In this document: piece by piece, positions 12,906 through 28,534 of the stretch
Numbering within the stretch: the stretch's first letter is position 1
How the letters are laid out: every line of letters starts with the position of its first letter
Assembly (NCBI GenBank): GCA_030018275.1
Contig: JASEGB010000013.1
Span: forward strand, 1 to 35,340
Length of the DNA stretch: 35,340 bases
Reading direction: 5' to 3'
From: Actinomycetota bacterium
GTDB lineage: Bacteria > Actinomycetota > Aquicultoria > Subteraquimicrobiales > Subteraquimicrobiaceae
The notes under the pieces: model-generated
Databases searched by the model: none
The model's input: the letters and a program-made list of their open reading frames with translations, nothing else
Told to the model about the DNA's origin: nothing
Program-made: the position numbers and the translations under genes

Positions 12906-13190
12906 GGACGATCTTCCACCTTTTAAAATATTTTAACCCAAAAACGCAGTAAAAGGAATTTGAGAAAACGCAGGTTTTAAAATCTTTGATTGAATGCACA
13001 TCGGGGTTAATTCTCCGTAAAAAGAAGGAGATACTAACAAATAAATCGAATATAGAAAGATGAAAAACAAATACTTTCGTTGGAGCAAAATACTTCCTCT
13101 GTCCCCATAATTCTTCCAGCATTCTTGCGCTATACAACGTTTTCACACCATTGAAAGGGGTGAGTTTTTCCTTTGAAAAGGACAACCCCT
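12906..13190. other. Divergent intergenic region
   Basis: This AT-rich region separates the minus-strand ubiU-like operon from the plus-strand kinase, so promoters for both should lie here. I see the palindrome TTAAAATATTTTAA near 12931 but no convincing -35/-10 pair. A 100-codon open frame on the minus strand (12883-13185) is Phe-rich, overlaps ubiU and resembles nothing I recognise, so I do not call it a gene. Confidence 0.5.
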
Positions 13191-14138: not shown

Positions 14139-14168
14139 ATTGTTGGCTTCGCTAGATTCGAGGAAAAG

Positions 14169-14789
14169 ATGAGGGGACTGAAAATCTTAATAGTAGACGA
14201 TCATAACCTCTTTCGTAAGGGATTACGAAAGATCCTTGAATTGGAAAAGGATATAGGCATCATTGAGGAAGCAGCAAATGCTTCTGAAGCCGTTCAAAAG
14301 TCCAAGGAAATATGTCCCGATGTGGTATTGATGGATATAACCATGCCCGAGACGGATGGCATAGAGGCAACGAGACTTATAAAAACAGTTTCCCCCACAA
14401 GTGATATAATTATCCTCTCCATGCACGATGATGATCACTACCTCTTTGGAGCAATTAAAGCGGGAGCTAGAGGTTATGTACTTAAAGAAGCAACCGTTGA
14501 AGAGCTTGTGGAAAGCATTAAAGCCACAGTAAAGGGAGAAAGCCCGCTTAATCCCATATTAGCTCGCCGAATTTTGGACGAATTCGCCAACTCGCAGAAA
14601 GCTGAGATTGTACAGGGCGATTTTGATAAGCTGACTCAAAGGGAAAAGGAGATTTTAAAATTTGTAGCCGGGGGCAAGAAAAATGAAGAGATAGCAAAAA
14701 AGCTATTCATAAGCGAAAAGACGGTCAAGAATCACCTTTCAAATACTTCCACAAACTACATTGTAATGATCGAACTCAAGCCGTATTAG
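14169..14789 (+). CDS. NarL/LuxR-type response regulator 1, frameshifted in its HTH domain
   Basis: The receiver domain is intact: the acidic pair VDD, phospho-acceptor D56 in VVLMDITMP, the switch Ser in IIILSMHDDD and the Lys in YVLKEAT. The LuxR HTH follows (LTQREKEILKFVAGG, SEKTVKNHLSN), but the frame then changes to an unrelated tail and stops at 14789. In another frame the expected end reads CNDRTQAVLEGVRLGIIEIE and stops at 14825-14827. One missing base near 14742-14752 explains this. As read, the last HTH helices are lost, so DNA binding is doubtful. GAGGAAAAG precedes the ATG. The restored stop would sit 5 bases from the convergent lipoprotein stop, a natural gene boundary. Confidence 0.85.
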   Translation: MRGLKILIVDDHNLFRKGLRKILELEKDIGIIEEAANASEAVQKSKEICPDVVLMDITMPETDGIEATRLIKTVSPTSDIIILSMHDDDHYLFGAIKAGARGYVLKEATVEELVESIKATVKGESPLNPILARRILDEFANSQKAEIVQGDFDKLTQREKEILKFVAGGKKNEEIAKKLFISEKTVKNHLSNTSTNYIVMIELKPY

Positions 14790-14832
14790 AGGGCGTTCGG
14801 CTGGGAATAATCGAGATCGAACATTAATTAGA

Positions 14833-15354
14833 CTACTGTGTATTCTTTTCTTCATATTGCACATGAATCCGAGTTTTCCCATAGTCGGTATATATGATGA
14901 CGAACGCAAATTGTTTTCCTTTAGTGAATGGATACACATACCCTCCGGCTTTCCTCTCCATCTTGGGTTCTGGTTGTACCCAACCTTGGGTGGGAAGTTT
15001 AGACTCATAATATTGCTGCACTTGCTCCAAACTGTCAACCGTGAAAGAGACTATTTGTTGTACCTCGCCATGCGGGGTTTTATTTTTCACCCTATTTTCG
15101 ATTTTCGCATTTGGATACAACAACTCTGAGGGGGAACTGCTTATATCAACTTCTTTTCTCTTCGCTTCCTGAGTTTCGACTTTTACGCTGGTTTCTTCTT
15201 TGACCTCTTCCTTGGCCTCCTTCTTGACCGCTTCCCTGGCTTTTCTCTCAACAGATCTCTTCGGTGATCGGAAACACCCCGAAAAAAGAATGGATGCAAT
15301 TAAAAGGAAACAAAATGAAACAAAGATAAATCTTCTTTTCTTCACGTAATACAC
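14833..15354 (-). CDS. Small lipoprotein of unknown function
   Basis: This 173-aa protein has a basic N-terminus, a hydrophobic stretch and a lipobox ending LFSGC (Cys near 27), so it is probably lipid-anchored. A charged Lys/Glu linker (about 35-70) follows. A small C-terminal domain begins LLYPNAKIENRV and contains SLEQVQQYYESKLPTQGW, a pattern common in small exported domains of unknown function that relate time-point or dosage-like repeats of the 'yPgA...v..yY...L...GW' kind. It converges with response regulator 1 and faces away from the repeat cluster. The role is unknown. Confidence 0.8.
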   Translation of the reverse strand: MYYVKKRRFIFVSFCFLLIASILFSGCFRSPKRSVERKAREAVKKEAKEEVKEETSVKVETQEAKRKEVDISSSPSELLYPNAKIENRVKNKTPHGEVQQIVSFTVDSLEQVQQYYESKLPTQGWVQPEPKMERKAGGYVYPFTKGKQFAFVIIYTDYGKTRIHVQYEEKNTQ

Positions 15355-15397
15355 GCCCTTGAAAGATTTAGCGCTTTAACTCTAAAGGATTTGTAGC

Positions 15398-15453
15398 AGC
15401 AGGTCAAGCCCGAATTGGGAGGTCCGATTGGAAATAATTGAAATTGAACACTA
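15398..15453 (+). pseudogene. Relic of a second response-regulator C-terminus
   Basis: The DNA aligns with the last ~19 codons of response regulator 1 (restored frame): around 15424-15453 it reads RLEIIEIEH then TAA, against RLGIIEIEH. Upstream, GGTCAAGCCCG matches ACTCAAGCCG of the same gene. No receiver or intact HTH precedes it. It is followed directly by a strong terminator, so it looks like the end of a deleted or rearranged paralogous regulator gene. Confidence 0.6.
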
Positions 15454-15464
15454 ATTTAAGACCA

Positions 15465-15494
15465 AAGACCCATTTAAAATGGGTCTTGTTTTTT
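15465..15494 (+). terminator. Rho-independent terminator
   Basis: AAGACCCATTT and AAATGGGTCTT are perfect 11-base arms around a one-base centre, followed by GTTTTTTG. On the plus strand it ends the regulator relic just upstream. A weakened version of the same sequence follows the receiver-only regulator at about 16150-16172. Confidence 0.75.
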
Positions 15495-15533
15495 GTTTGA
15501 TTATCTTATAGGCGAGTTCACCTGCTGGGAAAT

Positions 15534-15690
15534 GTAGGGGGCGGGGTTACCTGCCCATCCGTCAGGCGGGTCCCCGCCCAAAACAAAATCGGCGGATGAA
15601 CCGCCGCGCTACAGGAAATTTTGCGGGAGATGAACTCCCGCACTACTAAAATCCCGATGTAGGGGCGGGTCTCCGTGCCCGCCCAATGCT
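15534..15690. repeat. Cluster of GC-rich palindromic repeats, family 2
   Basis: Several short palindromes lie in a row, among them GGGGCGGGTCTCCGTGCCCG, GGCGGATGAACCGCCGCGC and GCGGGAGATGAACTCCCGC, most starting near TAG and ending with CGCTAC or CACTAC. Similar units occur at 19452-19477, 19530-19552, 22327-22380, 29832-29860 and 31928-31957. They form hairpins in either direction and resemble REP/BIME clusters. The last unit abuts the start region of the receiver-only regulator. Confidence 0.75.
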
Positions 15691-15706
15691 AAGAGGTTCA
15701 AAAGCG

Positions 15707-16090
15707 TTGGGGCAAATAAAAGTTCTGGTAGTTGATGATGACGCGCTATTTCGGCGAGTACTTTGCGAATCGCTTGAACTGGAAAAGGACCTTCAAGTGG
15801 TTGGGGAAGCCGCTGATGGCGAGGAAGCTATATCCAAAGCGCAAGAATTTATCCCAGATGTAATTCTCATGGACCTTAAGATGCCAAAGATGAATGGAGC
15901 GGCGGCGACTCGCTACATAAAGTCGAAAGAACCGAAAATAAAGGTGATCATGCTCTCCGCATATGTGGATAAGCAACTCATCGCAGAATCTTTGCAAGCC
16001 GGAGCCAACGCTTATCTACTCAAGGACCAACCCCTTCAAAACATCATCCGAACGATAAGGATCGTCTGTCACGCACCAGAATGGTATTAA
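15707..16090 (+). CDS. Stand-alone receiver domain (response regulator 2, no HTH)
   Basis: About 127 aa from TTG at 15707, which has AAGAGG about 10 bases upstream. An ATG at 15686 lies inside the repeat edge and lacks a ribosome site. The receiver has VVDDD, D56 in VILMDLKMP, the switch Ser in IMLSAYVD and Lys in YLLKDQP. The protein ends [16 protein letters not shown] with double TAA, right where the linker to a LuxR HTH would begin, and I find no HTH in any frame downstream. It is either a CheY-like single-domain regulator or a truncated NarL-like one. It lies between the regulator relic and the intact regulator 3. Confidence 0.75.
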
Positions 16091-16224
16091 TAAATCCCTT
16101 CGAACACAGGTTTGGGTGACCATAGACCTAGAAAAATAATGAAACTTAAGTCCTATTCAAATTGGGTCTTTTTATGTGCTTAGATAAAAAAAGAAAAGGC
16201 AGTATGAGACCGAAGGAGGATAAA

Positions 16225-16875
16225 ATGGGGAGACTTAAGGTGTTAATTGCCGAGGATCATGAACTGATGCGAAAGGGGCTTCGAAGCGTACTCCAATTAG
16301 AGGATGCATTTGACATCGTAGGAGAAGCAAAGGATGGTCAAGAGGCAATAGAAAAGGCGAAAACACATCAGCCAGATGTGGTTTTAATGGATCTGAGGAT
16401 GCCCGATGTGGATGGGATAAGGGCATGTCGAGAGATCCACTCCCGCTTCCCGGAAATAAAAATTTTGGTATTGACCGCTTATGAAACCGATGAGGATATC
16501 TTCACATCGCTTCAAGCGGGAATCTCGGGTTACCTGCTTAAGGATATAAGCCCTGAGGAACTCTTAAAGGCCATCCGCACAGTTTCGGAGGGAAAATCCA
16601 TTCTCCATCCTTCAGTTGCCCGCAAAGTTCTGGATAGACTCTCCTCACCTTTGGAATCACAGATGAGTGATTGTGAATCCTCTCCATTAACTGCAAGAGA
16701 AAAGGAAGTTCTCAACTTAATGACCCGTGGTTTGAAAAACAGAGATATCGCTAAGACTTTGTTCATCAGCGAAAAAACCGTTAAAACCCATGTGAGCAGC
16801 ATCCTTCGCAAGCTCAAGCAATCCGACCGCACCCAGGCTGTACTCCATGCCATCCGCCAAGGTTTAGCTAAATAA
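16225..16875 (+). CDS. NarL/FixJ-family response regulator 3 (intact)
   Basis: This 216-aa protein is complete. Its receiver has IAEDHE, D56 in VVLMDLRMP, the switch Thr in ILVLTAYETD and Lys in YLLKDIS. The LuxR-type HTH reads LTAREKEVLNLMTRG, then SEKTVKTHVSSILRKLKQ and DRTQAVLHAIRQG. The ATG at 16225 is 5 bases after AAGGAGGA; the longer frame from 16162 is less likely. It is the only regulator of the three with an undamaged HTH, so it is the best candidate partner for the kinase at 13191. The surface locus downstream is a plausible but unproven target. Confidence 0.92.
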   Translation: MGRLKVLIAEDHELMRKGLRSVLQLEDAFDIVGEAKDGQEAIEKAKTHQPDVVLMDLRMPDVDGIRACREIHSRFPEIKILVLTAYETDEDIFTSLQAGISGYLLKDISPEELLKAIRTVSEGKSILHPSVARKVLDRLSSPLESQMSDCESSPLTAREKEVLNLMTRGLKNRDIAKTLFISEKTVKTHVSSILRKLKQSDRTQAVLHAIRQGLAK

Positions 16876-17416: not shown

Positions 17417-17516
17417 ACTTAATCCTCCTTTAATTGTGGTCTCATTTGCAGCTACACTATAATCCCCACAGAAAGGCAACTGAGAATTGAGTGCTTTCCG
17501 TGATCATGCGGGGATG

Positions 17517-17583
17517 TCTCAGACTTTAGTCTTAATGAAAAATCCATCCAATGACCGATGTTACCTGTTTTCTTTTAGTTTAA
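17517..17583 (+). repeat. Long direct repeat, copy A
   Basis: A 67-base sequence starting TCTCAGACTTTAGTCTTAAT and ending TTTAGTTTAA recurs almost unchanged at 20212-20279, differing only near ACCTGTTTTCT/ACCATGTTTCTCT. Each copy sits 190-310 bases upstream of an exported-protein gene of the surface locus. The two copies bracket the two SipW-cognate genes and the signal peptidase. Confidence 0.9.
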
Positions 17584-17615
17584 ATTTAAGATAAAGTCCA
17601 ATCCTTGATATTTTT

Positions 17616-17633
17616 CATATTTGCGCAAATATG
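17616..17633. promoter_or_regulatory. 18-bp perfect palindrome, candidate operator
   Basis: CATATTTGCGCAAATATG is a perfect dyad about 137 bases before the first SipW-cognate start codon. The equivalent place after repeat copy B holds a smaller dyad, TTCGTACGAA (about 20331-20340). It could be bound by a dimeric regulator; which one is not known. Confidence 0.45.
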
Positions 17634-17769
17634 AGAATGATTTGAAAAAGCAGCACAGTGACCAATCTGGAATGATTAATCTATTTCTATTGGGGGTGAT
17701 TATCGGAAATATACTGAGAAATAATCTTGGTACTAGACCATTACATTTGACTGAAAGGAGGGGAAAATT

Positions 17770-18477
17770 GTGCAGAATGTGGCAATTATCAAAACTGGAC
17801 CGAGGATGCTAAGGCGAATGGTGAAGGCAAGAGTTAGAAAGAAGATTTTGTCTAGTTTGCTAACAATTGGGTTAGTGGCAATCCTCATCGGTGGAGCAAC
17901 ATTCGCCTACTTCAGCGATACCGAGACGAGTACCAACAACTTAGCCCAAGCAGGAACCTTAGACTTGAGAATGGGACCACCTGCTTATGAAGTCGATAAT
18001 CCAGGTGCGATAATTACAGCGACGAATTTGGCACCCTGCAAAGAGGCGGGTCCCTATGAAATCGGGTTTAAGAATGTTGGTACCTTGCCTGGCATCCTAA
18101 GCATCACCATCTCTTATGACGATGCTGATGGCACTGGCACAGCAGAGTTTAGACCAGGACTCGTAACTGCTAATGCATTTGCCGAGAAACTTTATGTGAC
18201 TCAGGCACTCTACGACAGGAACCAGGACGGCGATTATGAGGATACAAATGAGGACGTGCTGGCTGATTGGAAGGCTTACGCCGATGCCAATAACGATGGC
18301 AAGCTGAGCGTACATGAGATGGCTTTGAAGACCTGGACCTTTACTGAATCCCTAGGTCCTGGAGCATCTACAAAAGTCCAGATCAAGTTGCATCTGAATC
18401 CTGACGTAGGCAACGACTATCAGGCTGAAGGCATCAACGTAACCATCACCGGCATCCTGAATCAACTGAACCAATAA
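17770..18477 (+). CDS. SipW-cognate exported protein (TasA/camelysin-like), copy 1
   Basis: This 235-aa protein has the diagnostic SipW-dependent leader: basic residues, a hydrophobic stretch LTIGLVAILIGGATFAYFSD, then TETSTNN and AGTLDLRMG (mature part from about residue 47). Known relatives form extracellular fibres or metalloprotease-like camelysins. The mature part is a beta-rich domain with a perfect EF-hand-type loop DANNDGKLSVHE at 172-183 and a second Asp/Asn-rich loop at 149-162. The GTG at 17770 is 6 bases after AAGGAGGGG. A paralog follows at 18534 and the ER-type signal peptidase at 19571, so leader removal is probably done by that enzyme. No catalytic protease motif is visible. 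Confidence 0.88.
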   Translation: MQNVAIIKTGPRMLRRMVKARVRKKILSSLLTIGLVAILIGGATFAYFSDTETSTNNLAQAGTLDLRMGPPAYEVDNPGAIITATNLAPCKEAGPYEIGFKNVGTLPGILSITISYDDADGTGTAEFRPGLVTANAFAEKLYVTQALYDRNQDGDYEDTNEDVLADWKAYADANNDGKLSVHEMALKTWTFTESLGPGASTKVQIKLHLNPDVGNDYQAEGINVTITGILNQLNQ

Positions 18478-18533
18478 TGGCTGAAAAGGGGTGATGCAAA
18501 TCATCCCTGATCCACTTGATTAGGATCGGGGCG

Positions 18534-19208
18534 ATGAGTATGAATCTACGAATACTCAAATCCATATTGATCATAATCACCATATTGACCCTGGTGGGTG
18601 GAGCAACTGTCGCCTATTTCACCGATACTGAGACTAGCACTGGAAATACGTTCACCGCGGGTACTTTTGATCTCAAAGTTGCAGATAACAACGAGGATTA
18701 TGGCGATGGCGTGCATGAAACGTGGACGATGAAAAATATGATTCCAGGGGTAACCACCTGTGGAGGCATGGTTCTCCTTAAAAACTTTGGAAGCATCGAA
18801 GCGGACCACGTGGAGATCGAGGTCAGCAACGATTGCATCGAAGCTGGGAATGAGGAAAGCGACACCCTTCCAAAAAGCGCCGAAGGCATGGATGAGTATA
18901 TCCAAATAACCCACATGGAATATTATGGTCGTTTGCTACTCTTCACGGACACGGATGATCCCGATGCAGATGACGATGATCCCGCAACTCCCTGGAACGA
19001 GGTTGACGACGTCAACGGAAATGGATTTATCGATCTGGATGATTTTGAACAAAAGCCAATCGATGATTTAAAACCAGTTCCGACGCCAGACATTGGTAGA
19101 TGCTTTATAATGTACCTCAAATTCCACAAAAGCGCTCCAAACGACTACCAGGGTGATAAGTGCGATATGACCATGACCTTTACATTGAATCAGCACTCAA
19201 GCCAGTAA
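18534..19208 (+). CDS. SipW-cognate exported protein (TasA/camelysin-like), copy 2
   Basis: This 224-aa protein from the ATG at 18534 (AGGA 8 bases upstream) shares the leader pattern ILTLVGGATVAYFTDTETST then GNTFTAGTFDLKV. The mature domain has MIPGVTTCGGMVLLKNFGS, a pattern common in TasA-like proteins. A highly acidic stretch (about 139-150) and an EF-hand-like loop DVNGNGFIDLDD (159-170) suggest calcium binding. There are three cysteines after the leader. It follows copy 1 by 56 bases and ends at a strong terminator, so the two form one unit, probably two subunits of one fibre or matrix. Confidence 0.88.
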   Translation: MSMNLRILKSILIIITILTLVGGATVAYFTDTETSTGNTFTAGTFDLKVADNNEDYGDGVHETWTMKNMIPGVTTCGGMVLLKNFGSIEADHVEIEVSNDCIEAGNEESDTLPKSAEGMDEYIQITHMEYYGRLLLFTDTDDPDADDDDPATPWNEVDDVNGNGFIDLDDFEQKPIDDLKPVPTPDIGRCFIMYLKFHKSAPNDYQGDKCDMTMTFTLNQHSSQ

Positions 19209-19570
19209 AGGAATATATAAAGAGGCATCAAAGAAGCACGCATGGTGAGCGAGTGGCGAAATTCGCCACTCGCTTTCTTCATAAATTTGATTTTTTGTTA
19301 TAAGCGTCATTTAAGATGTAGAAATAGGTCTTAAGACCTGTTATTTTTGGGAATATGTTATTCCAATTTGAACAGACCTAAAGGTCTGTACAAGGTTCTC
19401 TTATTTTTATCCATAATTTCGTGGTAAGCTAAAAGCTACCTACAATAAATTCTGCGGCGGATGGTCCGCCGCGCTGCAATAAATTTGATATAGAGCATTC
19501 CCCTCCAAAAAAGCTTATGAGAGTAGGGCTGGGGTTCATCCCCAACCGATGATTCGGAGTTCATCGTGAA
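19209..19570. other. Intergenic region with terminator and repeats before the signal peptidase gene
   Basis: After the terminator come a family 1 palindrome (19320-19392), a family 2 unit GGCGGATGGTCCGCCGCGC (about 19454-19474) and a third hairpin GGCTGGGGTTCATCCCCAACC (19533-19552). No small ORF with a ribosome site is apparent. The signal peptidase gene must have its own promoter here if the terminator is efficient, but I see no clear consensus. Confidence 0.6.
19248..19282 (+). terminator. Terminator after the SipW-cognate pair
   Basis: AGCGAGTGGCGAA and TTCGCCACTCGCT form a 13-base perfect stem with a one-base centre, followed by TTCTTC. It lies 40 bases after the stop of copy 2. Confidence 0.75.
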
Positions 19571-20107
19571 ATGCTTAAAAGAATCATCAAATGGTCAATA
19601 ATATCTCTGATAATCCTGGTGTTTTTATTGGCGGTGGCTTCCGTATTCACGCGACTCAAGTCCTTTGAATCGCTGCCTTCAGTGAAGGGCTACCGACCCC
19701 TTGTGGTTCTCGGCGGGAGCATGGAACCGGCGATAAAGGTTGGAAGCATCGCCATGGTCAAAACCATAAGTCCATCGGATGTTGAGATCGGTGACATCAT
19801 AACCTACAAAACTCCAACGAATCCTCGCACTTACACCACTCACAGAGTGATAAAAATCAGCAAGCGCCATGGGAATCTCTATTTCAAAACCAAGGGTGAT
19901 GCCAATGAAGATCCGGACCGTTGGACGATCACATCCGCCGACGTTTTGGGCAAAGTAACCTTAACCATTCCTTACTTCGGTTATTTCATCCACTTTGCCC
20001 GAACTCGCCTCGGTTTTATCCTGCTCGTCATCGTCCCCGGCGTTCTGATAATCGTGGGCGAAATTCGAAATATCCTCAAATCCATCAAAGAAGCCAGAAG
20101 CATCTAA
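19571..20107 (+). CDS. sipW: ER/archaeal-type signal peptidase I (SipW-like)
   Basis: This 178-aa membrane peptidase removes leaders of exported proteins. N-terminal (about 8-27) and C-terminal (about 145-168) membrane segments flank the catalytic domain. The nucleophile is S50 in VLGGSMEPAIKVGS. As in the ER-type group that includes Bacillus SipW, the second catalytic residue is a His (H91 in YTTHRVIKI) in place of the Lys of ordinary bacterial enzymes. The box KTKGDANEDPD around D110 is also typical. Placed between the two SipW-cognate genes and the rest of the surface locus, it is probably dedicated to them. The ribosome site is weak. Confidence 0.93.
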   Translation: MLKRIIKWSIISLIILVFLLAVASVFTRLKSFESLPSVKGYRPLVVLGGSMEPAIKVGSIAMVKTISPSDVEIGDIITYKTPTNPRTYTTHRVIKISKRHGNLYFKTKGDANEDPDRWTITSADVLGKVTLTIPYFGYFIHFARTRLGFILLVIVPGVLIIVGEIRNILKSIKEARSI

Positions 20108-20211
20108 GGGGGACAGTCCCCACAATCTTACTACCTGTAACTTTAAGTTCCCATCCAAAATATTTTGCTGCTTGTCGGCAGACAGGCCGGGGACAAGTCT
20201 CGAGATTCATC

Positions 20212-20279
20212 TCTCAGACTTTAGTCTTAATGAAAAATCCATCCAATGACCGATGTTACCATGTTTCTCTTTAGTTTAA
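20212..20279 (+). repeat. Long direct repeat, copy B
   Basis: Near-identical to copy A at 17517-17583. The conserved part includes ACTTTAGTCTTAATG and CCATCCAATGACCGATG. It lies about 300 bases upstream of the exported beta-protein gene at 20585. Confidence 0.9.
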
Positions 20280-20417
20280 GATTATGATTAGAATAGCAAA
20301 TTTAAATTTCCCAATTTTTGACATTCTCGCATTCGTACGAAAGTAAGAAAGATTAGAGCAGGAAAGAGTTTTTAAAAGTTATTTGAAATGAATTAATAGT
20401 TGAAGTAATGAAGGCGG

Positions 20418-20466
20418 AACCGACTGACCCAGGAGTGGCACTCGAAGGGGAAGTCGGTTTTTGGTT
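20418..20466 (+). terminator. Hairpin with T-tract in the leader of the exported beta protein (attenuator candidate)
   Basis: AACCGACT and AGTCGGTT pair perfectly, extended by ACCC/GGGG, with an inner GAGT-GGC-ACTC hairpin. TTTTTGGTTTT follows. It lies about 120 bases before the start codon at 20585, with no gene ending just upstream, so it is either the end of a small RNA or a leader attenuator. Confidence 0.6.
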
Positions 20467-20584
20467 TTGAAGAGGGGGTGATATAAAGGGTTGCATAAAA
20501 GAGGTTGCAGAAAGGGTGTGGCTCGCTGGCTAACCCACCTGGTTAAGACTTTAACTCTTATTAAAGGAAAGGAGGTGTTGACAA

Positions 20585-21142
20585 GTGAAGAAGCTATTAG
20601 CAATGGTTTTAGCAGCAGTGCTTTTGCTCAGCTTCTCGGGGATTGCTTTGGCGACACAGGTGCACAGCATAGGCACGGATTTGGATATGCAGAGCGTTTC
20701 CAAGAATTTACCCATCACGGTGAAAATCCATCCCACCATAGCCATGAATACCTTCGACAAGGAAACAGGAGACCAGAAGGATGTGATTAACATTCCTTGT
20801 TTGAACCCCAAGACCAACTGGCTTGGTAAGGATGGCGTGGATTGGGTTGTCTGGAGTAACCTGCCATTTCATAAGACCGCATCCTGGACCGACCTTAAGA
20901 CCAGTTGGAATGCGGGTACTGTGGCGGAGCCGAAGATGATTGAAGACGTCATAACAGCAGATAGAGTGGTAGTCAAAGTGGAGGGTGTGCCGATTCCAAA
21001 TCCCTGGACGAGTCCAATAATAGGCTATCCAGCTGAGCAGCACCAAGAGAAGGAAAACGTTATGGTGCAACTTGAGATCAACTGGTGTGACTCCGCCGGT
21101 ATATACACGGGATCACTTACCCTGGATGCGCATCAGAACTAA
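20585..21142 (+). CDS. Small exported beta-rich protein of unknown function
   Basis: This 185-aa protein has a classical signal peptide (LLAMVLAAVLLLSFSGIALA, cleavage about 23-24), unlike the SipW-type leaders nearby. The mature part begins near THSIGTDLDMQSV-type sequence (TQVHSIGTDLD), has ITVKIHPTIAM and ends NWCDSAGIYTGSLTLDA. The closing pattern G-Y-x-G-x-L-x-L is common in immunoglobulin-like pilin or coat subunits. Only two cysteines are visible. The GTG at 20585 is 8 bases after a perfect AAGGAGGTG, so translation should be strong. It is followed by its own hairpin. It may be an abundant structural subunit; the family is not recognised. Confidence 0.8.
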   Translation: MKKLLAMVLAAVLLLSFSGIALATQVHSIGTDLDMQSVSKNLPITVKIHPTIAMNTFDKETGDQKDVINIPCLNPKTNWLGKDGVDWVVWSNLPFHKTASWTDLKTSWNAGTVAEPKMIEDVITADRVVVKVEGVPIPNPWTSPIIGYPAEQHQEKENVMVQLEINWCDSAGIYTGSLTLDAHQN

Positions 21143-21162
21143 TCTCGACTTCCCAATGTATC

Positions 21163-21205
21163 AGAAGAGAGGAAGGGAGGGGCCCATCTCTTCCTCTCTT
21201 CTTGC
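21163..21205 (+). terminator. Probable terminator after the small exported protein
   Basis: AGAAGAGAGGAAG and CTTCCTCTCTTCT form a 13-base stem with a 14-base loop, 20 bases after the stop codon. The T-tract after it is poor. Confidence 0.55.
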
Positions 21206-21239
21206 CCTCATTTATGGATTATTTATGAAATTTTGAGAT

Positions 21240-21290
21240 AACAGACCTAAAGGCGTGCTACCCTCCCGGCGGGCGGCAGGCGGTCTGTTT
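21240..21290. repeat. Palindromic repeat, family 1 (short variant)
   Basis: AACAGACCTAAAGG is followed by a GC-rich centre (CCTCCCGGCGGGCGGCAGG) and CGGTCTGTTTC. It resembles the right half of the copy at 3268-3356. Confidence 0.65.
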
Positions 21291-21332
21291 CAGAATCTAT
21301 AGTGCTATATGTTAAGATAAGGAAAAAAATCG

Positions 21333-22310
21333 ATGGGGATTGTCGTGCTAAAGCTAAAGAAAGTGCAAAGATATATTTCGATGTCCATTTTAATAACCAT
21401 TTTGCTTCTACTGCTGGCAAGTCCAGCACAAGGGAGTATTGTTCTTTTCCCCAGTAGGATTGAAGTCTTCGTGCCACCTGGAGGAAGTGAAATCGTAGAG
21501 GTGAATGCGGCAAATACGGGCAAGAACCCTCTTAAGTGCAAGATAAATAGCTGGGATTTCGCACGGGATGAGAAGGGCATAGCCCACCCCATCCGCCCCG
21601 ATGATGTCAAGGTCTTCCGAGGTTGCGGTGGGTGGTTGGACTTTCACAGCAAATCGATGACCGTTTCCCCCGATGAGACCGGTACCTTCAAGTTCACGGT
21701 GAATGTTCCCAGGGATGCCGAATATGGCACCCATTATACCTATGTGACCATTGCAGGAACACCAATCTTACCCAAGGAAAAAGGAAAGGGGATCACCATT
21801 CGCTTGCCCATGACCTATAGGATACATGCATTGCTCTTGGTGATGGTGAGCAAGCCCGGTGAGAGCTCAGAGGTGGGCACAGAAATTCCCGTCCTTAAGC
21901 GCTCGGCAAAATTGAAGGATTTAATGATTGGTTACTTAAATTTCTCAAATCCGGTTCCAATGAAGATAAAGATTGAAAACACCGGCAACTGTCATCTAAT
22001 CTTAACGGGAATCATCGAAATTTGGAAGGGTAAGTACAAGGGCGAGACCATCCGCGTTCCCGAATATACGCTATTGCCAATGAATACTTTGATCATACCC
22101 ACTACCTGGCGCTCACCGGCACTTTTCGGCAAATTTAGAGCCAAATTGATTGGCGATGCCGGATTAAATAAACCAATTAAAGCGGAAAAGACCTTTTGGG
22201 TGATATCCTGGAAATTATTGCTGCCCGCTCTTTTAGGAATCGCACTCCTCATCGCCTCATTCATCTTATTCCTAAGGAAGTTTAGAATACAGCTCGCCCG
22301 GCGCACATAA
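21333..22310 (+). CDS. Membrane-anchored surface protein resembling DUF916/DUF3324 WxL-interacting proteins, copy 1
   Basis: This 325-aa protein has an N-terminal signal (about 15-35, ending PAQGS), an Ig-like domain beginning VLFPSRIEVFVPPGGSE, a second beta domain (IKIENTGNCHLILTG, LLPMNTLIIPT, ALFGKFRAKL), a C-terminal membrane segment (about 291-312) and a basic cytoplasmic tail. This order is that of Firmicutes DUF916/DUF3324 proteins, which bind peptidoglycan and WxL surface proteins. A paralog lies at 24115; both share the block F-x-GCG-x-W and V-P-x-DA-x-x-GT. AAGGA precedes the ATG. It opens a tight five-gene run ending with the sortase. The family assignment is by pattern, not by search. 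Confidence 0.75.
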   Translation: MGIVVLKLKKVQRYISMSILITILLLLLASPAQGSIVLFPSRIEVFVPPGGSEIVEVNAANTGKNPLKCKINSWDFARDEKGIAHPIRPDDVKVFRGCGGWLDFHSKSMTVSPDETGTFKFTVNVPRDAEYGTHYTYVTIAGTPILPKEKGKGITIRLPMTYRIHALLLVMVSKPGESSEVGTEIPVLKRSAKLKDLMIGYLNFSNPVPMKIKIENTGNCHLILTGIIEIWKGKYKGETIRVPEYTLLPMNTLIIPTTWRSPALFGKFRAKLIGDAGLNKPIKAEKTFWVISWKLLLPALLGIALLIASFILFLRKFRIQLARRT

Positions 22311-22326
22311 TTCAGACGTAGTTCCC

Positions 22327-22380
22327 TGTAGGGGCGGGACTTCGTGCCCGCCCAAAGGCGGGGGACAAGCCCCGCGCTAC
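22327..22380. repeat. Palindromic repeats, family 2
   Basis: GTAGGGGCGGGACTTCGTGC with its CCCGCCC partner is followed by GGCGGGGGACAAGCCCCGCG and CTAC. It nearly matches the unit at about 15659-15685. Confidence 0.75.
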
Positions 22381-22399
22381 CCATGGGATTCTGGAAAGT

Positions 22400-22447
22400 A
22401 CAAACAGGTCTTTAGACCTGTTTAACAGACTAAAGGTCTGTTTCTAC
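22400..22447. repeat. Palindromic repeat, family 1 (compact copy)
   Basis: AAACAGGTCTTTAGACCTGT is followed by TTAACAGACTAAAGGTCTGT and TTCTAC. This is the cleanest copy of the family and shows its two inverted halves. Confidence 0.75.
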
Positions 22448-22469
22448 GAGATTCTTTGGGACTGAAAAG

Positions 22470-24110
22470 ATGTGGAAGATGAAAAGAACGAGAGGAGGGG
22501 CAAGGAAAAGATTAATATCCGTGTTGCTTTCAATTTGCCTCATCCTCCCCTATATTCCTTGTGGAGTTGCTTCCGCTCATGGTGGCGGTCATCCCCATGA
22601 TGGTCATCCTCCCCATGAACATCAGGGTCATCCCCCTCACGATCATCATGGCTCATGCTGTGAGCCCCCAGAGGATGCCATAATCTTAAACATAGAGACA
22701 CCAGATGGTTCAGGGCAAGTCAATTTCACCTGCTTGAATCCGATAACCCACAAATTTGAGATCATCGATGACCCCTATGCGGTGAAGGTCACCGTGAAAT
22801 CACCCTGTGATTATGATCTTGCGGTTAAGGCAAACGGCGATTTAACAAATACTCTTTGTTCCTCGACTATCCCCATAGAAAACTTGTATTGGAAATTAAA
22901 GGAAGGAGATGAGTGGGTACCCTTCTCCACCGAGCAACACTTGATAATGGATTCTGATTGCACAAATTCAAACGATGCCTTTTACTTTGATTATCGGATG
23001 TTCAGTTCAGAAAATGGTGTGAGTTGGGAGATCAAAGCTGGGGGTTATGAGACCACCGTTGTGTACACGGTGTTCCCATGTGCAGAGAATAACCACTGCG
23101 ATGATGGATGCGGAAATGTGAATCACTCTCCTGGAGGTCAAAATGGCAAAGCTCATCAAAATGTTAATCATGAAAATCAAATCAATGAGCAATCAGATGA
23201 ACATGGACATAACGGAGAACATTACCCCGAACATCCCCAAGGACATGGAGGTCATCAGCATCAAAATGATAGTGATGTTCAAAATGATGGACGAGCTGAA
23301 GCCGGATACCATGGAGAGCATGGGCATGGTGGAAACGCTATGAGTCACGATTCAAATCAAGGAGATGGTAACCAGGATACTACTCATCGGGATCAATCCC
23401 ATTCCAATGTAGCTCCAAATGAGAGTCTAAATCAAGATCAGGAAACCCCAGGACAAGATTTAAGTCCATCTGAGGATATGGATGCTTCTGAGAGTTCTCT
23501 GCCTGAGGATACTACTCCCCCGCAGGTGGTTTTCATCACTGCGGGAGGAGAAGTTGAGGGCACCATTCCCATCAAGATCGCCGCCATCGATGATACAGGA
23601 ATAGAACAGGTTAAATTATTCATCGATGATGCTGAAATGGGCGATGTCCCCTTGAATGAAGAGGAATCGATGTACATCCATGATTGGGATACAACCACAA
23701 CCCAGGATGGAGAACATACCCTCGTGGTAAAGGCTTACGACCAGGCGGGAAATGAAGCTGTCTCCGATCCCTTAACTTTGACCACGAACAATCCTCCCTC
23801 CTCACCAAGGAACCTTATAGCAACTTCCAAAGAAGACGGAATCAATCTCACCTGGTCACCAAATCCCGAGACTGATATTGCGGGATACAACATCTATCGA
23901 GCAACATTCCAAGATGGTCCCTTTGAAAAAATAAATCAAGAATTGGTGACTTCTACATCTTTCAAGGATACGGGAATTAATTTGGACGATTCCTACTATT
24001 ATTTCATCAAAGCAGTGGATGAGACGGGTAAGGAATCTGAGGCGTCACAAACGGTATGGATTCCAGCCATCGCTCAATCGGAAAGCATCGTACCCGAGCC
24101 TAAAGAATAG
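22470..24110 (+). CDS. Large exported His-rich protein with Ig-like and fibronectin type III domains
   Basis: This 546-aa protein has a signal peptide (about 14-36). A His-rich cluster follows at once (about 37-62, including GHPHDGHPPHEHQGHPPHDH), then a cysteine-containing beta domain (about 67-215), a second His/Asn/Gln-rich low-complexity linker (about 225-325), an acidic Ser/Glu stretch, an Ig-like domain (PQVVFITAGGEVEGTIPIKI to DPLTLTTNN) and an Fn3 domain (SSPRNLIATSKEDGINLTW to ASQTVWIP). It has no sorting signal or membrane anchor, so it is probably held by partners. The histidine clusters could bind zinc, nickel or copper. It lies between the two DUF916-like genes. Confidence 0.85.
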   Translation: MWKMKRTRGGARKRLISVLLSICLILPYIPCGVASAHGGGHPHDGHPPHEHQGHPPHDHHGSCCEPPEDAIILNIETPDGSGQVNFTCLNPITHKFEIIDDPYAVKVTVKSPCDYDLAVKANGDLTNTLCSSTIPIENLYWKLKEGDEWVPFSTEQHLIMDSDCTNSNDAFYFDYRMFSSENGVSWEIKAGGYETTVVYTVFPCAENNHCDDGCGNVNHSPGGQNGKAHQNVNHENQINEQSDEHGHNGEHYPEHPQGHGGHQHQNDSDVQNDGRAEAGYHGEHGHGGNAMSHDSNQGDGNQDTTHRDQSHSNVAPNESLNQDQETPGQDLSPSEDMDASESSLPEDTTPPQVVFITAGGEVEGTIPIKIAAIDDTGIEQVKLFIDDAEMGDVPLNEEESMYIHDWDTTTTQDGEHTLVVKAYDQAGNEAVSDPLTLTTNNPPSSPRNLIATSKEDGINLTWSPNPETDIAGYNIYRATFQDGPFEKINQELVTSTSFKDTGINLDDSYYYFIKAVDETGKESEASQTVWIPAIAQSESIVPEPKE

Positions 24111-24114
24111 ACGA

Positions 24115-25044
24115 ATGGTCAATTCGATTCGGGATGAGCTTAGGAGAACGGCTATTGCCTTGATTTGCTTCTCACTGGTCGTCCCCAGTATCGCGGAAGC
24201 AACAATGCAATTTGCCGTCTCACCGTCCCGAATTAATTTGACGCTCAAACCCGGCGAAAAGGGGCATAAAGATATAAAAATCATAAATATGAGCGAGGCA
24301 AAGATCACCATCGCCGCATCCACTATGGATTTTGTGCGAGATGAGAGAGGAAATATCCAGCGGTTAACGCCAGAGGAAGCCGAAAAATTCGGTGGATGCG
24401 GGAGTTGGATTTCATTCTCAAAATCGCTTCTTTTGGTGCCTCCGGGTCAAACTTCAAATGTGAGCATCACCGCTCGAGTGCCAGCTGATGCAAAACCGGG
24501 AACTTATTCGACCTATTTGATCTTTGGAACTCCAGAAGCCAAGGTGAGACCGGATACCGTGAAGGTCATCGGGCAAATTGCCTCGTTGCTCCGGGTGACG
24601 GTCCCCGGGCAAAGGGTGGAATTTCCAAAGATGCAAAAACAAGGGCGTTTAATCACCTTTGAGGTTCCTCGCTGGAACTTGGGTAGATCGGTGACTTTCA
24701 AAACGAAGTTTAAGAACACGGGCAACATCCATTTGGATGTGGAGCAAAATATCGAAATTCGAGATAAAAATGGCAAAGTGGTGGCGAGATTGAAACCGAT
24801 CAAGAAAATGATTCTGCCGGGTAAAACGGAAACACTATCCAATGAAACACTATCCAATACTTTTAGGGGAATACCAGTTTTTGGTAAATTTGAGGTCGTT
24901 GTCACCATTGAAGCGGGCTTGGATAAGCCTTTGGTTAGAAGGGCGGAATTTTGGGTCATTCCTGGGAAACTGATCGCGGTGGGATTGAGCATCATTCTCC
25001 TGTTAGCAATCTTTCTGACCGCTCTACGTATTAAAGGAAGATAG
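24115..25044 (+). CDS. Membrane-anchored surface protein resembling DUF916/DUF3324 WxL-interacting proteins, copy 2
   Basis: This 309-aa protein starts at the ATG at 24115, 4 bases after the previous stop; the longer open frame from 24019 overlaps the upstream gene and has no ribosome site. It has a signal peptide (RTAIALICFSLVVPSIAEA), an Ig-like domain starting AVSPSRINLTLKPGEKG, a second beta domain (FKNTGNIHLDVEQNIEI, MILPGKTETL, VFGKFEVVVTIEAGLDKP) and a C-terminal membrane segment with a basic end (LRIKGR). It aligns along its length with the protein at 21333. A pair of such anchors could hold two different partners, for example the His-rich protein and the SipW-cognate fibre. Confidence 0.77.
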   Translation: MVNSIRDELRRTAIALICFSLVVPSIAEATMQFAVSPSRINLTLKPGEKGHKDIKIINMSEAKITIAASTMDFVRDERGNIQRLTPEEAEKFGGCGSWISFSKSLLLVPPGQTSNVSITARVPADAKPGTYSTYLIFGTPEAKVRPDTVKVIGQIASLLRVTVPGQRVEFPKMQKQGRLITFEVPRWNLGRSVTFKTKFKNTGNIHLDVEQNIEIRDKNGKVVARLKPIKKMILPGKTETLSNETLSNTFRGIPVFGKFEVVVTIEAGLDKPLVRRAEFWVIPGKLIAVGLSIILLLAIFLTALRIKGR

Positions 25045-25046
25045 CA

Positions 25047-25730
25047 ATGTGTGGAAACATGCGCTTGATTAAAAAATTATTCTTTTGTCTCCTTCTGATC
25101 GGATATTACTTCTGTTCTCTTCGGGCACCTTCTACTGAATACGTGAAAACCAGTGAGGACAGGACGGAAATAGAGAAATCCATGCCTATTCAAGTCGAAA
25201 TCGAGAAAGTCGCTAGGATCAGCATAGTGGAACCCGGTCAATTTGCCACTGGTGGACCGGGGGATATTTTGAATTATTCCACCACTATTTCAAACACTGG
25301 AAACTTTATAGATATCATCGATATAATCTATACTTCAGAACAAGGCTGGACTTATAAATTCTTTAGTGACCCCAATGGAGATGGCGATCCCTCGGATGGT
25401 GAAGAGCTCAAGGATACCGACGGTGATGGGATAATTGATACTGGGGAAATCAGCAAAGATTGTCAAAAAAAGATCGTGAAACAAGCGATTATTCCATCGA
25501 CTGCCACGGATGGTATGGTTGACAGAATGACCATGACCATTAAGTCTAGCATCGACCCCTCCGCTACCGATAGTGTAATTAATACCACGGAAGTTGAATG
25601 GGCTGTTTTACCCTATAAGGAAAAGGTCGAAGCCGTGCTCCCCTTTGCAGGTGAAAACCTTTTGCTTTTCTTGATCCCTGGTACCATCTTAGTTGCCGCA
25701 GGATTATGGATTTTCCGCTTATCCAAATAA
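25047..25730 (+). CDS. Surface protein with EF-hand loops and an LPFAG sorting signal
   Basis: This 227-aa protein has an N-terminal hydrophobic signal (about 8-25), a beta domain with VARISIVEPGQFATGGPGD and STTISNTGNFIDI (DUF11-like conserved pattern), then DPNGDGDPSDGEE and a canonical EF-hand loop DTDGDGIIDTGE (123-134). The C-terminus is a textbook sortase signal: LPFAG at 198-202, a hydrophobic stretch (204-223) and the basic tail RLSK. The next gene is a sortase, so covalent attachment to the wall or to a pilus is likely. AAGGAAG precedes the ATG, 2 bases after the upstream stop. Confidence 0.85.
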   Translation: MCGNMRLIKKLFFCLLLIGYYFCSLRAPSTEYVKTSEDRTEIEKSMPIQVEIEKVARISIVEPGQFATGGPGDILNYSTTISNTGNFIDIIDIIYTSEQGWTYKFFSDPNGDGDPSDGEELKDTDGDGIIDTGEISKDCQKKIVKQAIIPSTATDGMVDRMTMTIKSSIDPSATDSVINTTEVEWAVLPYKEKVEAVLPFAGENLLLFLIPGTILVAAGLWIFRLSK

Positions 25731-25764
25731 TCCCAAACCTACTAGTTCCAACTTAAGAGGCAAA

Positions 25765-25989
25765 ATGATGCTAACCAAGAAGCTATCCCAGTTTTACTCA
25801 AACTCGGAAGAAAACAAAGAGAAATTAACAAAAAGGCTTAAGCGAAGGCGGGCCAAGAGGAAAAGGCTTGGCAGGATTCTTGGAATACTCCTGATATTAG
25901 CCGGGCTAGGATTGATTCTTTACCCTTCTCAACCTCCCTACTCAACCTGCGTACTCAAGCAAAATTGGAGAAAGAATGGAAAAAGATAA
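25765..25989 (+). pseudogene. N-terminal membrane part of the sortase, out of frame with the catalytic part
   Basis: From the ATG at 25765 this frame gives a charged segment, many Arg/Lys residues and a membrane anchor LGRILGILLILAGLGLILYP, as in class E/D sortases. It then passes through a 13-bp tandem repeat and ends NWRKNGKR. The sortase domain continues in another frame (RTQAKLEKEWKKIKS). The two frames should be one gene, 25765-26444. Confidence 0.8.
25928..25959 (+). repeat. 13-bp tandem repeat at the sortase frame break
   Basis: Unit 1 CTCAACCTCCCTA (25928-25940) and unit 2 CTCAACCTGCGTA (25941-25953) are 11/13 identical and are followed by the start of a third, CTCAAG. Two units put the membrane anchor and the catalytic part in different frames. 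Zero or three units would join them in frame. Confidence 0.8.
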
Positions 25990-26444
25990 AATCAGAAGCA
26001 GTTGAAAATCGCTCACCCTCCGGTCAAAAGAAATCATTGGAAGCAAAACCGTTGGGAGCTCCCGCAGTTAAGATAATCATCCCAAAGATCAACCTAGAAG
26101 CAATAGTCGTTGAGGGAGCCGATAGAAACTCTTTAAAGAAGGGTCCGGGTCACGTTAAGAGTTCTGCCTATCCAGGAGAAAAAGGTTACTGTATCATCGC
26201 GGGTCACAGAACCACTTACGGAGCACCCTTTTTTAGAATCCACCATTTACAAAAGGGTGATGAAATTTTCATCGAGACTCCAAGCAGTAAGTTTACGTAT
26301 ATAGTTGAAAAGGTGTTTAGCACCCGTCCCTACGATCTCTCGTTCATGAAACCCATCGATGAAGCCGTCTTAATCTTGAGTGCCTGCACACCTATCCATA
26401 GCGCCGCCAGAAGACTGGTGGTCCTTGCAAAATTAGCCACTTAG
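25965..26444 (+). CDS. Sortase catalytic domain (class E/D-like)
   Basis: This 159-aa frame has the complete sortase core: IIIPKINLEAIVVEGAD, catalytic H81 in IIAGHRTTYGAPFFRI, C141 in LILSACTPIHSAARRL, and the Arg of that motif. Sortases are membrane-tethered transpeptidases that cleave a sorting signal and join the protein to peptidoglycan or to another pilin. The annotated start here is a TTG with no ribosome site, because the natural N-terminus lies in another frame (25765-25989). Without it the enzyme would lack its membrane anchor. The gene immediately upstream encodes the LPFAG-bearing protein, the likely substrate. Confidence 0.9.
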   Translation: MEKEWKKIKSEAVENRSPSGQKKSLEAKPLGAPAVKIIIPKINLEAIVVEGADRNSLKKGPGHVKSSAYPGEKGYCIIAGHRTTYGAPFFRIHHLQKGDEIFIETPSSKFTYIVEKVFSTRPYDLSFMKPIDEAVLILSACTPIHSAARRLVVLAKLAT

Positions 26445-26695
26445 CCGATTTTTTCCCTCATTTTACCCTACGATTTTCATATCTCGCTTTGGTCAATCTT
26501 TGGTCGATCATATGTAATTCCAATGCCACCCAAGTAACTCCAATACCACATGGGTTCATTCTTCACTTAGAAAAGCCAAATTCTCATTTGAAATTGGAAG
26601 AAAACTATCCCAAAGGATAGTTGTATGAAAAGGTCAAACTCTGGTAATAAGGTGATATTAGCAAACACAAGAAAATTCAACTGATAGGAGGTCTA
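26445..26695. other. Intergenic region before the lamin-tail protein gene
   Basis: A hairpin AACTATCC-CAAA-GGATAGTT lies at 26603-26622, and a strong AGGAGG precedes the next ATG. No T-tract follows the hairpin. No other feature is seen. Confidence 0.5.
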
Positions 26696-27985
26696 ATGAA
26701 TCACTTAAAAAGAATATCAATACTATTGGTCACTTTTGCTTTTTTGCTTACCTCTGCCCACTCAACAAGTGCGGGAAGTGCCTCTCATCTTTTGATCTCC
26801 GAAGTCTTCTACGATACACCAGGGGCTGATTCTAATGAAGAATGGATTGAGATATATAACCCAACTACCTCGGCTATTGACATTTCAAATTATAAGGTTG
26901 GTGATGAGGAAACCAAAGGTGGTAGCGAAGGGATGTTCAAGTTCCCCGATGGAACTAAGATTCAAGCCGGGGCGAAGATGACGGTAGCTTTAAAAGCCAG
27001 TGGTTTTTATGCCCTCTATGGAAGAGACTCAGATTTTGAAATAAGCGACACCAAAGCTCAAGTCCCCGACATGCTCAAGTATTCGATATGGGGAACCGGA
27101 ACTATTTCCTTAGCAAACACTGGAGATGAAGTACTTTTACTGAATGAAGGTGATAACGCCATAGATGTTGTGACCTATGAGAAAGGTTCTTATCCAGGAG
27201 TTACTCCACACCCAGGTGTTCCCACGGGACACTCTCTGGAAAGATTTCCCCCAGATCGGGACACCGATGATTGTAGCGCGGATTTCAGGGATCAACCAAA
27301 CCCCAATCCCGAAACCATGGCTCCGCCACCACCAAAGGTTACAGCCGACTTTCAAATTTCAGCCGATCCAGCTCCTCCTGATTTCCACAAGGTAGTCAGG
27401 GGCGAAAAAGCTTCATGGATAATCAATCTGGAATCAATGGGTGACTTTAACTCCCCGATAAGCCTGAAGGTCTTTGGGCTTCCGAGCAGGGCTTCCGCAA
27501 CTCTTTCGCATACTAGCGTTATACCCCCTGGGAGTTCCGGACTGGAAATCACGACATCCGATTCTTCCCCCGTGGGGAGTTACCTCATATTGGTCATGGG
27601 AATAAGCGGAAACAAGGTTCATAGCTGCTACGTCAATTTGAAAGTTGTACTTCCGCCATCTCCACCAAGCGACTTTATCCTGTCTCTCGATCCTAACTCT
27701 GACTTTGCCCAAACCGTGGTCGCTGGAGATTCAGCCTCTTGGACACTCAATCTAAATCGCATAGGGGATTTTGGTTCCTCGGTTCGGTTGATGGTTTATG
27801 GTCTACCCGATGGAGCTCACGCAACCTTCGATGCTAATTCGGTCACACCTGATGGTATCTCCACTCTGATCATTTCCACCTCTCCTTCCACTCCACACGG
27901 AAGCTACCTAATACCAGTGATGGGAATAAGTCAAGGCAAAGCCCACAGCTGTTACATTAATTTAAAAGTGAAGCCACCATTCTAA
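26696..27985 (+). CDS. Exported lamin-tail-domain protein with two Ig-like repeats
   Basis: This 429-aa protein has a signal peptide (about 4-26). A lamin-tail (LTD) domain follows: LLISEVFYDTPGADSNEEWI, EIYNPTTSAIDISNYKVG, IQAGAKMTVAL, then STAN-like GTGTISLANTGDEVLLL. After a Pro-rich linker come two repeats of about 95 residues (about 217-315 and 325-427) that share DF...V..G..ASW..NL...GDF and GSYLI.VMGIS..K.HSCY. There is no nuclease domain and no sorting signal. LTD modules occur in many exported bacterial proteins as probable binding domains. AGGAGG lies 4 bases before the ATG. It closes the surface locus. Confidence 0.85.
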   Translation: MNHLKRISILLVTFAFLLTSAHSTSAGSASHLLISEVFYDTPGADSNEEWIEIYNPTTSAIDISNYKVGDEETKGGSEGMFKFPDGTKIQAGAKMTVALKASGFYALYGRDSDFEISDTKAQVPDMLKYSIWGTGTISLANTGDEVLLLNEGDNAIDVVTYEKGSYPGVTPHPGVPTGHSLERFPPDRDTDDCSADFRDQPNPNPETMAPPPPKVTADFQISADPAPPDFHKVVRGEKASWIINLESMGDFNSPISLKVFGLPSRASATLSHTSVIPPGSSGLEITTSDSSPVGSYLILVMGISGNKVHSCYVNLKVVLPPSPPSDFILSLDPNSDFAQTVVAGDSASWTLNLNRIGDFGSSVRLMVYGLPDGAHATFDANSVTPDGISTLIISTSPSTPHGSYLIPVMGISQGKAHSCYINLKVKPPF

Positions 27986-28059: not shown

Positions 28060-28142
28060 ACTACTTGGGGACAGTCCCCACACAATCTTTTGACCTGCGA
28101 CTTTAAACATTATTTCAAAATTTCAGCGCTGCAAGTAGCGCT
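28060..28142. repeat. Repeat hairpins at the edge of the inverted hepT segment
   Basis: GGGGACAGTCCCC followed by ACACAATCTT matches the hairpin and flank at 20108-20130. A second small palindrome, AGCGCT-GCAAGT-AGCGCT, ends in ACG just where the hepT body becomes recognisable. Confidence 0.55.
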
Positions 28143-28534
28143 ACGATGGAAGAGTTCAACTCCTAAAAACTTTGAGAGTTGGCTCTCCCTCCGACTTGGA
28201 GAAAAACGAGGAAAGATTTTGTGCTCTCAAGAATATCCTTTACGAAGCGGTAATGGATGTGATCAAAATAGGACAACACATTATAGCCGCTTTGCAGCTG
28301 GAAAAACCCCAAACTTATCGAGATGTTTTGCGAATTTTAGGGGGAAACATAGTGCCAGAAGAATTATTTAAGCGAATTCAGAGAATGGGTGGCTTTCGAG
28401 TTATCCCCGCTCACGAATATGAGTCAATTGACCGAGAAACGGTATATAAGCTTCATTTGAGGACCAAGGATTTTGAGGAATTTATTTACAACATAAATAA
28501 ATTTCTGGAGAAGGTATCGCAGAAATTAAGGTAG
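28139..28534 (+). pseudogene. HepT-like (DUF86/HEPN) body, lacking its N-terminus
   Basis: From 28139 the frame is open and reads VQLLKTLRVGSPSDLEKNEE, then IGQHIIAALQLEKPQTYRDV, MGGFRVIPAHEYE (the RX4HxY HEPN motif) and ends EKVSQKLR. HepT proteins are HEPN RNases or kinase-like toxins neutralised by a MntA nucleotidyltransferase. The first ~20 residues and a ribosome site are missing; the first possible start is TTG at 28172. The missing N-terminus appears on the other strand at 28526-28582, next to mntA. The segment has therefore been inverted and the gene cannot be expressed whole. Confidence 0.75.

Follow-up and report, generated by a model that had tools for sequence, protein, structure and literature searches.

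The window analysed here, a 35,340-nt stretch (contig C13) from an uncultured groundwater lineage, Candidatus (Ca.) Subteraquimicrobium (Ca. Aquicultoria, Actinomycetota), carries what is probably a variable surface-structure island of two stacked, co-regulated cassettes, bounded on the left by the end of a response regulator gene (16875) and on the right at ~28067. Cassette 1 (17770-20107) is predicted to encode two TasA-like proteins and a dedicated SipW-type signal peptidase. Cassette 2 (20585-27985) is identified by homology as a distant relative of the WxL/Csc clusters, and contains two pairs, each a WxL-like protein with its own membrane-anchored WxLIP-like partner behind it, and after these an LPFAG protein, a sortase, and a lamin-tail-domain (LTD) protein. 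The homologies, the pairing, the shared upstream element, and the exchange of slot contents among sister species were established by computation. The source genome has 1.49 Mb and a completeness of 99%, and the closest relative with a name is its congener Ca. Subteraquimicrobium carltonvillense UBA2594 (G001). The gene check of the window (Table 1) confirmed all ten genes of the initial annotation, their coordinates and their single strand, including a tight run of five genes from 21333 to the sortase, with intergenic gaps of 159, 4, 2, and ~37 nt.

The WxL/Csc clusters of Lactobacillales and Bacillales are built of CscA-D, with WxLIP, small WxL, large WxL, and LPxTG proteins (PMC1534035, PMC9772566, PMC10599100). 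The window paralogs at 21333 and 24115 are 32% identical, and both have a signal peptide, two beta domains, and a C-terminal transmembrane (TM) helix. Their earlier label as DUF916/DUF3324 proteins holds by profile methods and fails by single-sequence Pfam, where the 24115 protein reaches 16.9 bits with PF06030 (cut-off 27.3) and the 21333 protein has no match at E<=1. An alignment of 18 relatives defines a single family, in which two beta domains precede a C-terminal TM helix; PF06030 matches nine of the 18 members, and three relatives in the class (G012, G014, G019) exceed its cut-off. With E 4.5e-9 over both Ig domains, the family profile finds Enterococcus faecium EfmWxLIP1 (the protein of solved structures 9i25 and 9i1y), and hhalign gives 95% to WxLIP of E. 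faecium/E. faecalis and 98.7% to DUF916 proteins of Paenibacillus, Cellulosimicrobium, and Clavibacter. Foldseek with the predicted structure of the 24115 protein returns EfmWxLIP1 as all three of its top PDB matches (E ~1e-12). A single-sequence PDB search gave no match for the 24115 protein and chance-level matches for the 20585 protein; with one WxLIP-like protein as query, a contig scan of genomes matched G001 alone, and viral contigs gave no match. By profile, hhalign, and Foldseek the paralogs are placed in a surface-anchor family, contrary to the HMM outcome that the initial annotation had named as its refutation, and they are classified as divergent WxLIP (DUF916/DUF3324) homologues.

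Among the relatives, nearly every WxLIP-like gene has a secreted neighbour bearing a common beta domain. A hidden Markov model (HMM) from 13 such neighbours, with the window left out, matches the N-terminal domain of the His-rich 22470 protein (5.5e-18), and in leave-one-out searches all 14 members of the partner family were recovered (E 1.8e-10 to 2.7e-29; His-rich protein 1.3e-17). This WxL-like domain lies at residues ~57-204, not at the C-terminus. It had been missed by the initial annotation, which was right in describing a His-rich Ig/Fn3 protein: Big_7 and Fn3-like domains and 31 histidines are present. The small exported beta protein at 20585 was also recognised correctly, and represents a more divergent branch; its subfamily aligns to the partner family of the class by hhalign at 95.8% (E 7e-9), with negative controls at <=0.5%. 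PF13731 (WxL) has no match in the window proteins and matches four of 23 partners in the class; in G019, a PF13731 gene over the cut-off adjoins a PF06030 gene. A six-frame scan of 36 genomes of the class gave 18 WxL-like matches, 15 of them on the same contig as a WxLIP-like gene and within a few kb of it; most of the 15 had trained the profile, and three (G011:C38, G019:C32, G019:C119) had not. No match was obtained in a plasmid search with the WxL-like domain, and an AlphaFold model of this domain of the His-rich protein, built from one sequence, was discarded (pLDDT 40).

The WxLIP tree tracks the partner type (three types) with two changes, the fewest possible, vs 8.2 when shuffled (0/200), which is the expectation if each WxLIP-like protein is matched to its own partner. 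On this tree and on partner-family membership, two cognate pairs are assigned in the window, 20585 with 21333 and 22470 with 24115. Since the paralogs are WxLIP homologues and their neighbours belong to the WxL-like partner family, the right half of the island is classed as a WxL/Csc-type cluster with two WxL-like/WxLIP-like pairs. The same order of small, WxLIP, large, and WxLIP genes is found in another family of the class (G005:C1, L042:5190-11025), where the large protein has 1069 aa.

The window order maps onto CscB, CscA, CscC, CscA, and CscD of Siezen et al. 2006 (PMC1534035), with the LPFAG protein included. As in the described clusters, a two-domain Ig-like TM protein, detectably homologous to EfmWxLIP1, lies near small and large secreted WxL-like proteins and a possible LPxTG-like protein. 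In contrast to them, the window has two WxLIP-like genes, one behind each WxL-like gene, and the WxL-like domain of its large protein is N-terminal, followed by a His-rich linker, Ig, and Fn3 domains. It also differs in having its own sortase, an upstream element in common with the SipW module, and a host in a deep actinobacterial lineage, and in scoring below the Pfam cut-offs. Over 91% of WxL domains have been reported from Firmicutes (PMC9772566). DUF916 proteins are already annotated in Actinomycetes (Cellulosimicrobium, Clavibacter plasmids), where a secreted protein of ~210 aa likewise stands beside the DUF916 protein; those loci differ in having one DUF916 gene, with GH43 and LamG proteins, and neither SipW nor sortase.

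The LPFAG protein with its TM tail was correctly annotated; it has A where the LPxTG motif has T, and is a candidate LPxTG protein. The sortase claim holds for the catalytic domain (PF04203, 2.2e-31, 108.6 bits, cut-off 26.6), which has the His, Cys, and Arg residues (IIAGH, LSACT, SAARR). It does not hold for one intact gene, as the TM anchor (25768-25989) and the catalytic domain (25965-26441) are in different frames; the break is either a sequence error or a mutation. Relatives have intact sortases; in the source genome, a search at E<=0.001 gave no other sortase. The LTD protein at 26696 scores 74 bits with PF00932 (cut-off 34.3), as claimed, and 29.8 bits with NF058595, under the cut-off of 37. 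The calcium and metal dependence proposed by the initial annotation is no more than a possibility: EF-hand matches in the window proteins are under the cut-off, and the His-rich stretch is suggestive at most. By eye, the mature His-rich protein is predicted to start with a histidine (VASA/HGGGH), and with 31 histidines it could possibly bind metal.

Two further features were seen in WxL-like proteins of relatives. Homologues of the 20585 protein next to WxLIP-like genes, L032:3744-4403 (G014:C83) and L034:998-1651 (G019:C119), have an N-terminal CQVCHG, a CxxCH heme-attachment motif, which suggests that a WxL-like wall protein carries c-type heme. Subtilases ending in a WxL-like domain stand beside small WxL-like and WxLIP-like genes (L031:11286-12899 in G029, L036:1544-3211 in G019), apparently proteases held at the wall by a WxL-like/WxLIP-like system.

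The SipW/TasA fibre kit is known from Bacillus. In cassette 1, the annotation of two SipW cognates and an ER-type signal peptidase is upheld by Peptidase_M73 (PF12389; 43.1 and 43.5 bits, cut-off 22.5), TIGR04088 (37.5 and 38.7 bits, cut-off 19), and TIGR02228 (128.6 bits, cut-off 51.85), and the peptidase has Ser48 (GGSM) and His91 (TTHR). The equivalog scores are not reached, either by the peptidase for SipW (NF046067, 132 bits, cut-off 190) or by window proteins for TasA (NF046066, 18 bits, cut-off 450) and the TapA anchor (TIGR04087, 13.9 bits, cut-off 80). The module thus resembles the TasA/TapA-SipW operon of Bacillus in its SipW-type peptidase and two TIGR04088/Peptidase_M73 cognates, and differs from it in the lack of TapA, in the unreached TasA and SipW equivalog scores, and in the two-component genes upstream. 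Regulators, two cognates, and SipW form a unit in G003, G012, and G017 as well, with regulator genes of the same kinds, peptidase orthologues of 54-58% identity, and a third cognate following, which in G003 and G012 has a Big_7 Ig domain. These units have no full-length WxLIP-like gene alongside.

Ahead of the SipW-cognate operon of the same three genomes lies a conserved foldable leader of ~107 nt, with two long stems and mostly one-sided pair changes (L093:6127-6233, L094:6449-6555, L095:7520-7628; G003, G017, and G012). It is not in Rfam, and a similar core occurs in the G002 leader and the window leader at 20515. The RNA model matches just its building genomes, G003, G012, and G017, and a leader RNA was dropped as part of the main claim. 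The surface locus on G003:C52, with a SipW module and a sortase, has c-di-GMP-I and c-di-GMP-II riboswitches (L093:2369-2459 and L093:13955-14037).

Table 1. Features of the island and its left flank in the window (nt positions of the forward strand).
Feature	Position	Strand	Basis or remark
Two-component genes, likely island regulators	13173..16875	+	Pfam HisKA_3/HATPase_c, Response_reg, GerE
Histidine kinase	13173-14138	+	
LuxR-type response regulators	14169-14789, 16162-16875	+	
Lone receiver	15686-16090	+	
63-nt element, copy 1, ahead of SipW/TasA module	17514..17576	+	92% identical to copy 2
20-bp perfect palindrome TCATATTTGCGCAAATATGA, possible regulator operator	17615..17634	none	related dyads at 20324-20349 and in G002 leader
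SipW-cognate/TasA-like protein 1	17770..18477	+	PF12389 and TIGR04088 over cut-off
SipW-cognate/TasA-like protein 2	18516..19208	+	PF12389 and TIGR04088 over cut-off
SipW-type (ER-type Ser/His) signal peptidase	19571..20107	+	TIGR02228 over cut-off
63-nt element, copy 2, ahead of WxL-type module	20209..20271	+	92% identical to copy 1
Dyad TTCTCGCATTCGTACGAAAGTAAGAA, counterpart of 17615 palindrome	20324..20349	none	
Small exported WxL-like protein (CscB-like role), predicted cognate of 21333 protein	20585..21142	+	hhalign to partner family of the class
WxLIP-like protein a (CscA-like)	21333..22310	+	signal peptide, two Ig-like domains, C-terminal TM
Large WxL-like protein (CscC-like)	22470..24110	+	HMM of WxLIP-adjacent proteins; PF17957
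WxL-like domain of 22470 protein	~22638-23081		followed by His-rich linker
Big_7 domain of 22470 protein	~23541-23729		
Fn3-like domain of 22470 protein	~23808-24059		
WxLIP-like protein b (CscA-like), predicted cognate of His-rich protein	24115..25044	+	profile and structure matches
LPFAG protein (CscD-like role), TM tail, acidic DxNGDGD-type loops	25047..25730	+	LPFAG at residue 198, then hydrophobic stretch, basic tail
Class D/E-like sortase, split over two frames	25768..26444	+	PF04203
Secreted LTD protein, two C-terminal repeats	26696..27985	+	PF00932
Right end of island	28067..28145	none	common to G001 and G002, 89-90%

The two cassettes are linked by a repeated upstream element of 63 nt that had escaped the initial annotation. 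A genome search found two copies in the source genome, one in G002, upstream of a SipW-type operon that occupies the corresponding slot, and none in G001 or G003. All three copies lie 190-350 nt upstream of the first gene of a surface operon, and palindromic dyads stand downstream of each. Over 357 aligned columns, the WxL-type operon leader (20210-20547) and the SipW-operon leader of G002 are 75% identical. Rfam returned nothing at the gathering score in the window, and below it chance matches alone, so that no known riboswitch heads the window operons. Because the same rare element heads both cassettes, it is suggested that they are switched on together.

The right flank is conserved in the sister species, with protein identities of 93-97% in G001 and mostly 88-95% in G002, and the interiors differ. 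The G002 slot contains two exported proteins resembling SipW cognates (no Pfam match) and a SipW-like peptidase fused to a Big_7/Fn3 tail, 44% identical to the window tail; the Ig/Fn3 tail is thus borne by a WxL-like head in the window and by a SipW-like head in G002. In the G001 slot the tail is still present, together with fragments of the 24115 gene and the first part of the LPFAG gene. The simplest account is a single slot in which different contents replace one another between the common leader and ends, and which in the source species has two kits in a stack. A bolder form of it, for which the odds are low, is that entire surface kits are swapped in a genus-level slot, between a promoter and an Ig/Fn3 tail that are both shared, and that here two are stacked and co-expressed, with TasA-like fibres held on a WxL-like/WxLIP-like wall platform as an undescribed hybrid structure.

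Several points weigh against the reading as an island of two co-regulated cassettes, one of them WxL/Csc-type. Against Firmicutes WxL domains the partner family scores moderately (57%, E 1e-4), and the window proteins lack the dual W-x-L motif of the described clusters; in the His-rich protein the aligned positions are YDL and VYT. The model of the 24115 protein (d916b) is mediocre, with pLDDT 66 and a TM-score of 0.35 to 9i1y. Co-regulation is deduced from DNA alone. The two modules are on one contig in no other genome seen, many contigs being short. Finally, as the G001 island is decayed and the window sortase frame is broken, part of cassette 2 may be inactive.

Variability of the slot among three sister species would also be expected of chance neighbours in an insertion hot spot, where the repeated upstream DNA would be a recombination by-product, uninformative on shared function. 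The modules do stand apart elsewhere, and a dispersed palindromic repeat is present at 20109 and 28067; this explanation is nevertheless unlikely, as the genome has no further copy of the element, which at all three sites precedes a surface operon at a similar distance, with a dyad alongside. The repeat itself (GGGGACAGTCCCC) is found at 20109-20146, just 3' of the SipW gene, and at 28067-28106, at the right end of the island, with ~5 copies in the genome; its use as a clean cassette boundary was weakened by further genomic copies of the palindromic core.

Alternatively, cassette 2 may be a decaying, partly kept locus on its way out, to which the split sortase and the gene fragments retained by G001 before the right end would both point. 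The other nine reading frames are intact, however, and in an assembly derived from a metagenome one broken frame may come from an error in the sequence, which leaves decay improbable to a similar degree.

The initial annotation took all ten genes for one dedicated composite appendage or wall layer, with TasA-like fibres built on or through a WxLIP-like/sortase platform. What stands of it is that one half is of SipW/TasA type and the other of DUF916/WxL type, and that the two are probably run together, given the rare element upstream of both modules on one strand and the Ig/Fn3 tail common to both head types; the Big_7 domains of the third SipW cognates of G003 and G012 also speak in its favour. 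A single fixed system is not supported, and is somewhat less probable than either chance or decay. The gene-order check in relatives placed WxL-like/WxLIP-like pairs and SipW modules on different contigs (WxLIP-like on C94 and SipW on C11 in G002; C21 and C34 in G012), the kind of scatter that the initial annotation had named as counting against it, and G003 and G017 have SipW modules in the absence of a full-length WxLIP-like gene. Being apart in relatives, the modules are not one obligate system. It is highly improbable that the WxLIP-like proteins, instead of being wall anchors, serve pilins as donor-strand chaperones in the manner of chaperone-usher systems: Foldseek also returns CfaA, CsuC, Caf1M, and EcpB, but WxLIP outranks them, no usher was recognised among the scanned window proteins, and the terminal TM helix is unlike periplasmic chaperones.

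Under the preferred reading of two stacked, co-regulated cassettes, the response regulators of the neighbouring two-component system would act on the shared element and both cassettes would be co-expressed. By strand exchange of the E. faecium kind, the WxLIP-like proteins would keep the WxL-like domains at the wall; a structure of E. faecium WxLIP bound to a long WxL protein is available (9i25), and strand insertion has been predicted (PMC10599100). The Ig/Fn3 end of the His-rich protein would face outward, the SipW-processed proteins would polymerise into fibres, and the sortase, if functional, would attach the LPFAG protein.

At the right edge of the island (28172-29752), a HepT-like gene (PF01934) is followed on the opposite strand by open reading frames resembling a nucleotidyltransferase, a PIN protein, and an AbrB-type antitoxin. 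A protein with GAF and HD_5 domains (HD-GYP type), likely a c-di-GMP phosphodiesterase, is encoded at 33553-34872, ~5.5 kb past the island.

Nearly all described WxL clusters come from Firmicutes associated with the gut or with plants, and host attachment has been the explanation given. In a literature search, the WxL domain and TasA were mentioned together in a general review alone. What is new is that divergent pairs of WxL type occur in a deep class of actinobacteria and share a control element with a TasA-like/SipW module; the components are otherwise of known kinds. The family profile, the partner-following WxLIP tree, and the window pairs offer a direct test of partner specificity, and the shared element beside a two-component system makes it possible to test whether WxL-type and TasA-type surface structures are linked. 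That a divergent, partner-matched version of the WxL system occurs throughout a deep class of groundwater Actinomycetota suggests a role at the cell wall that is older and more general.

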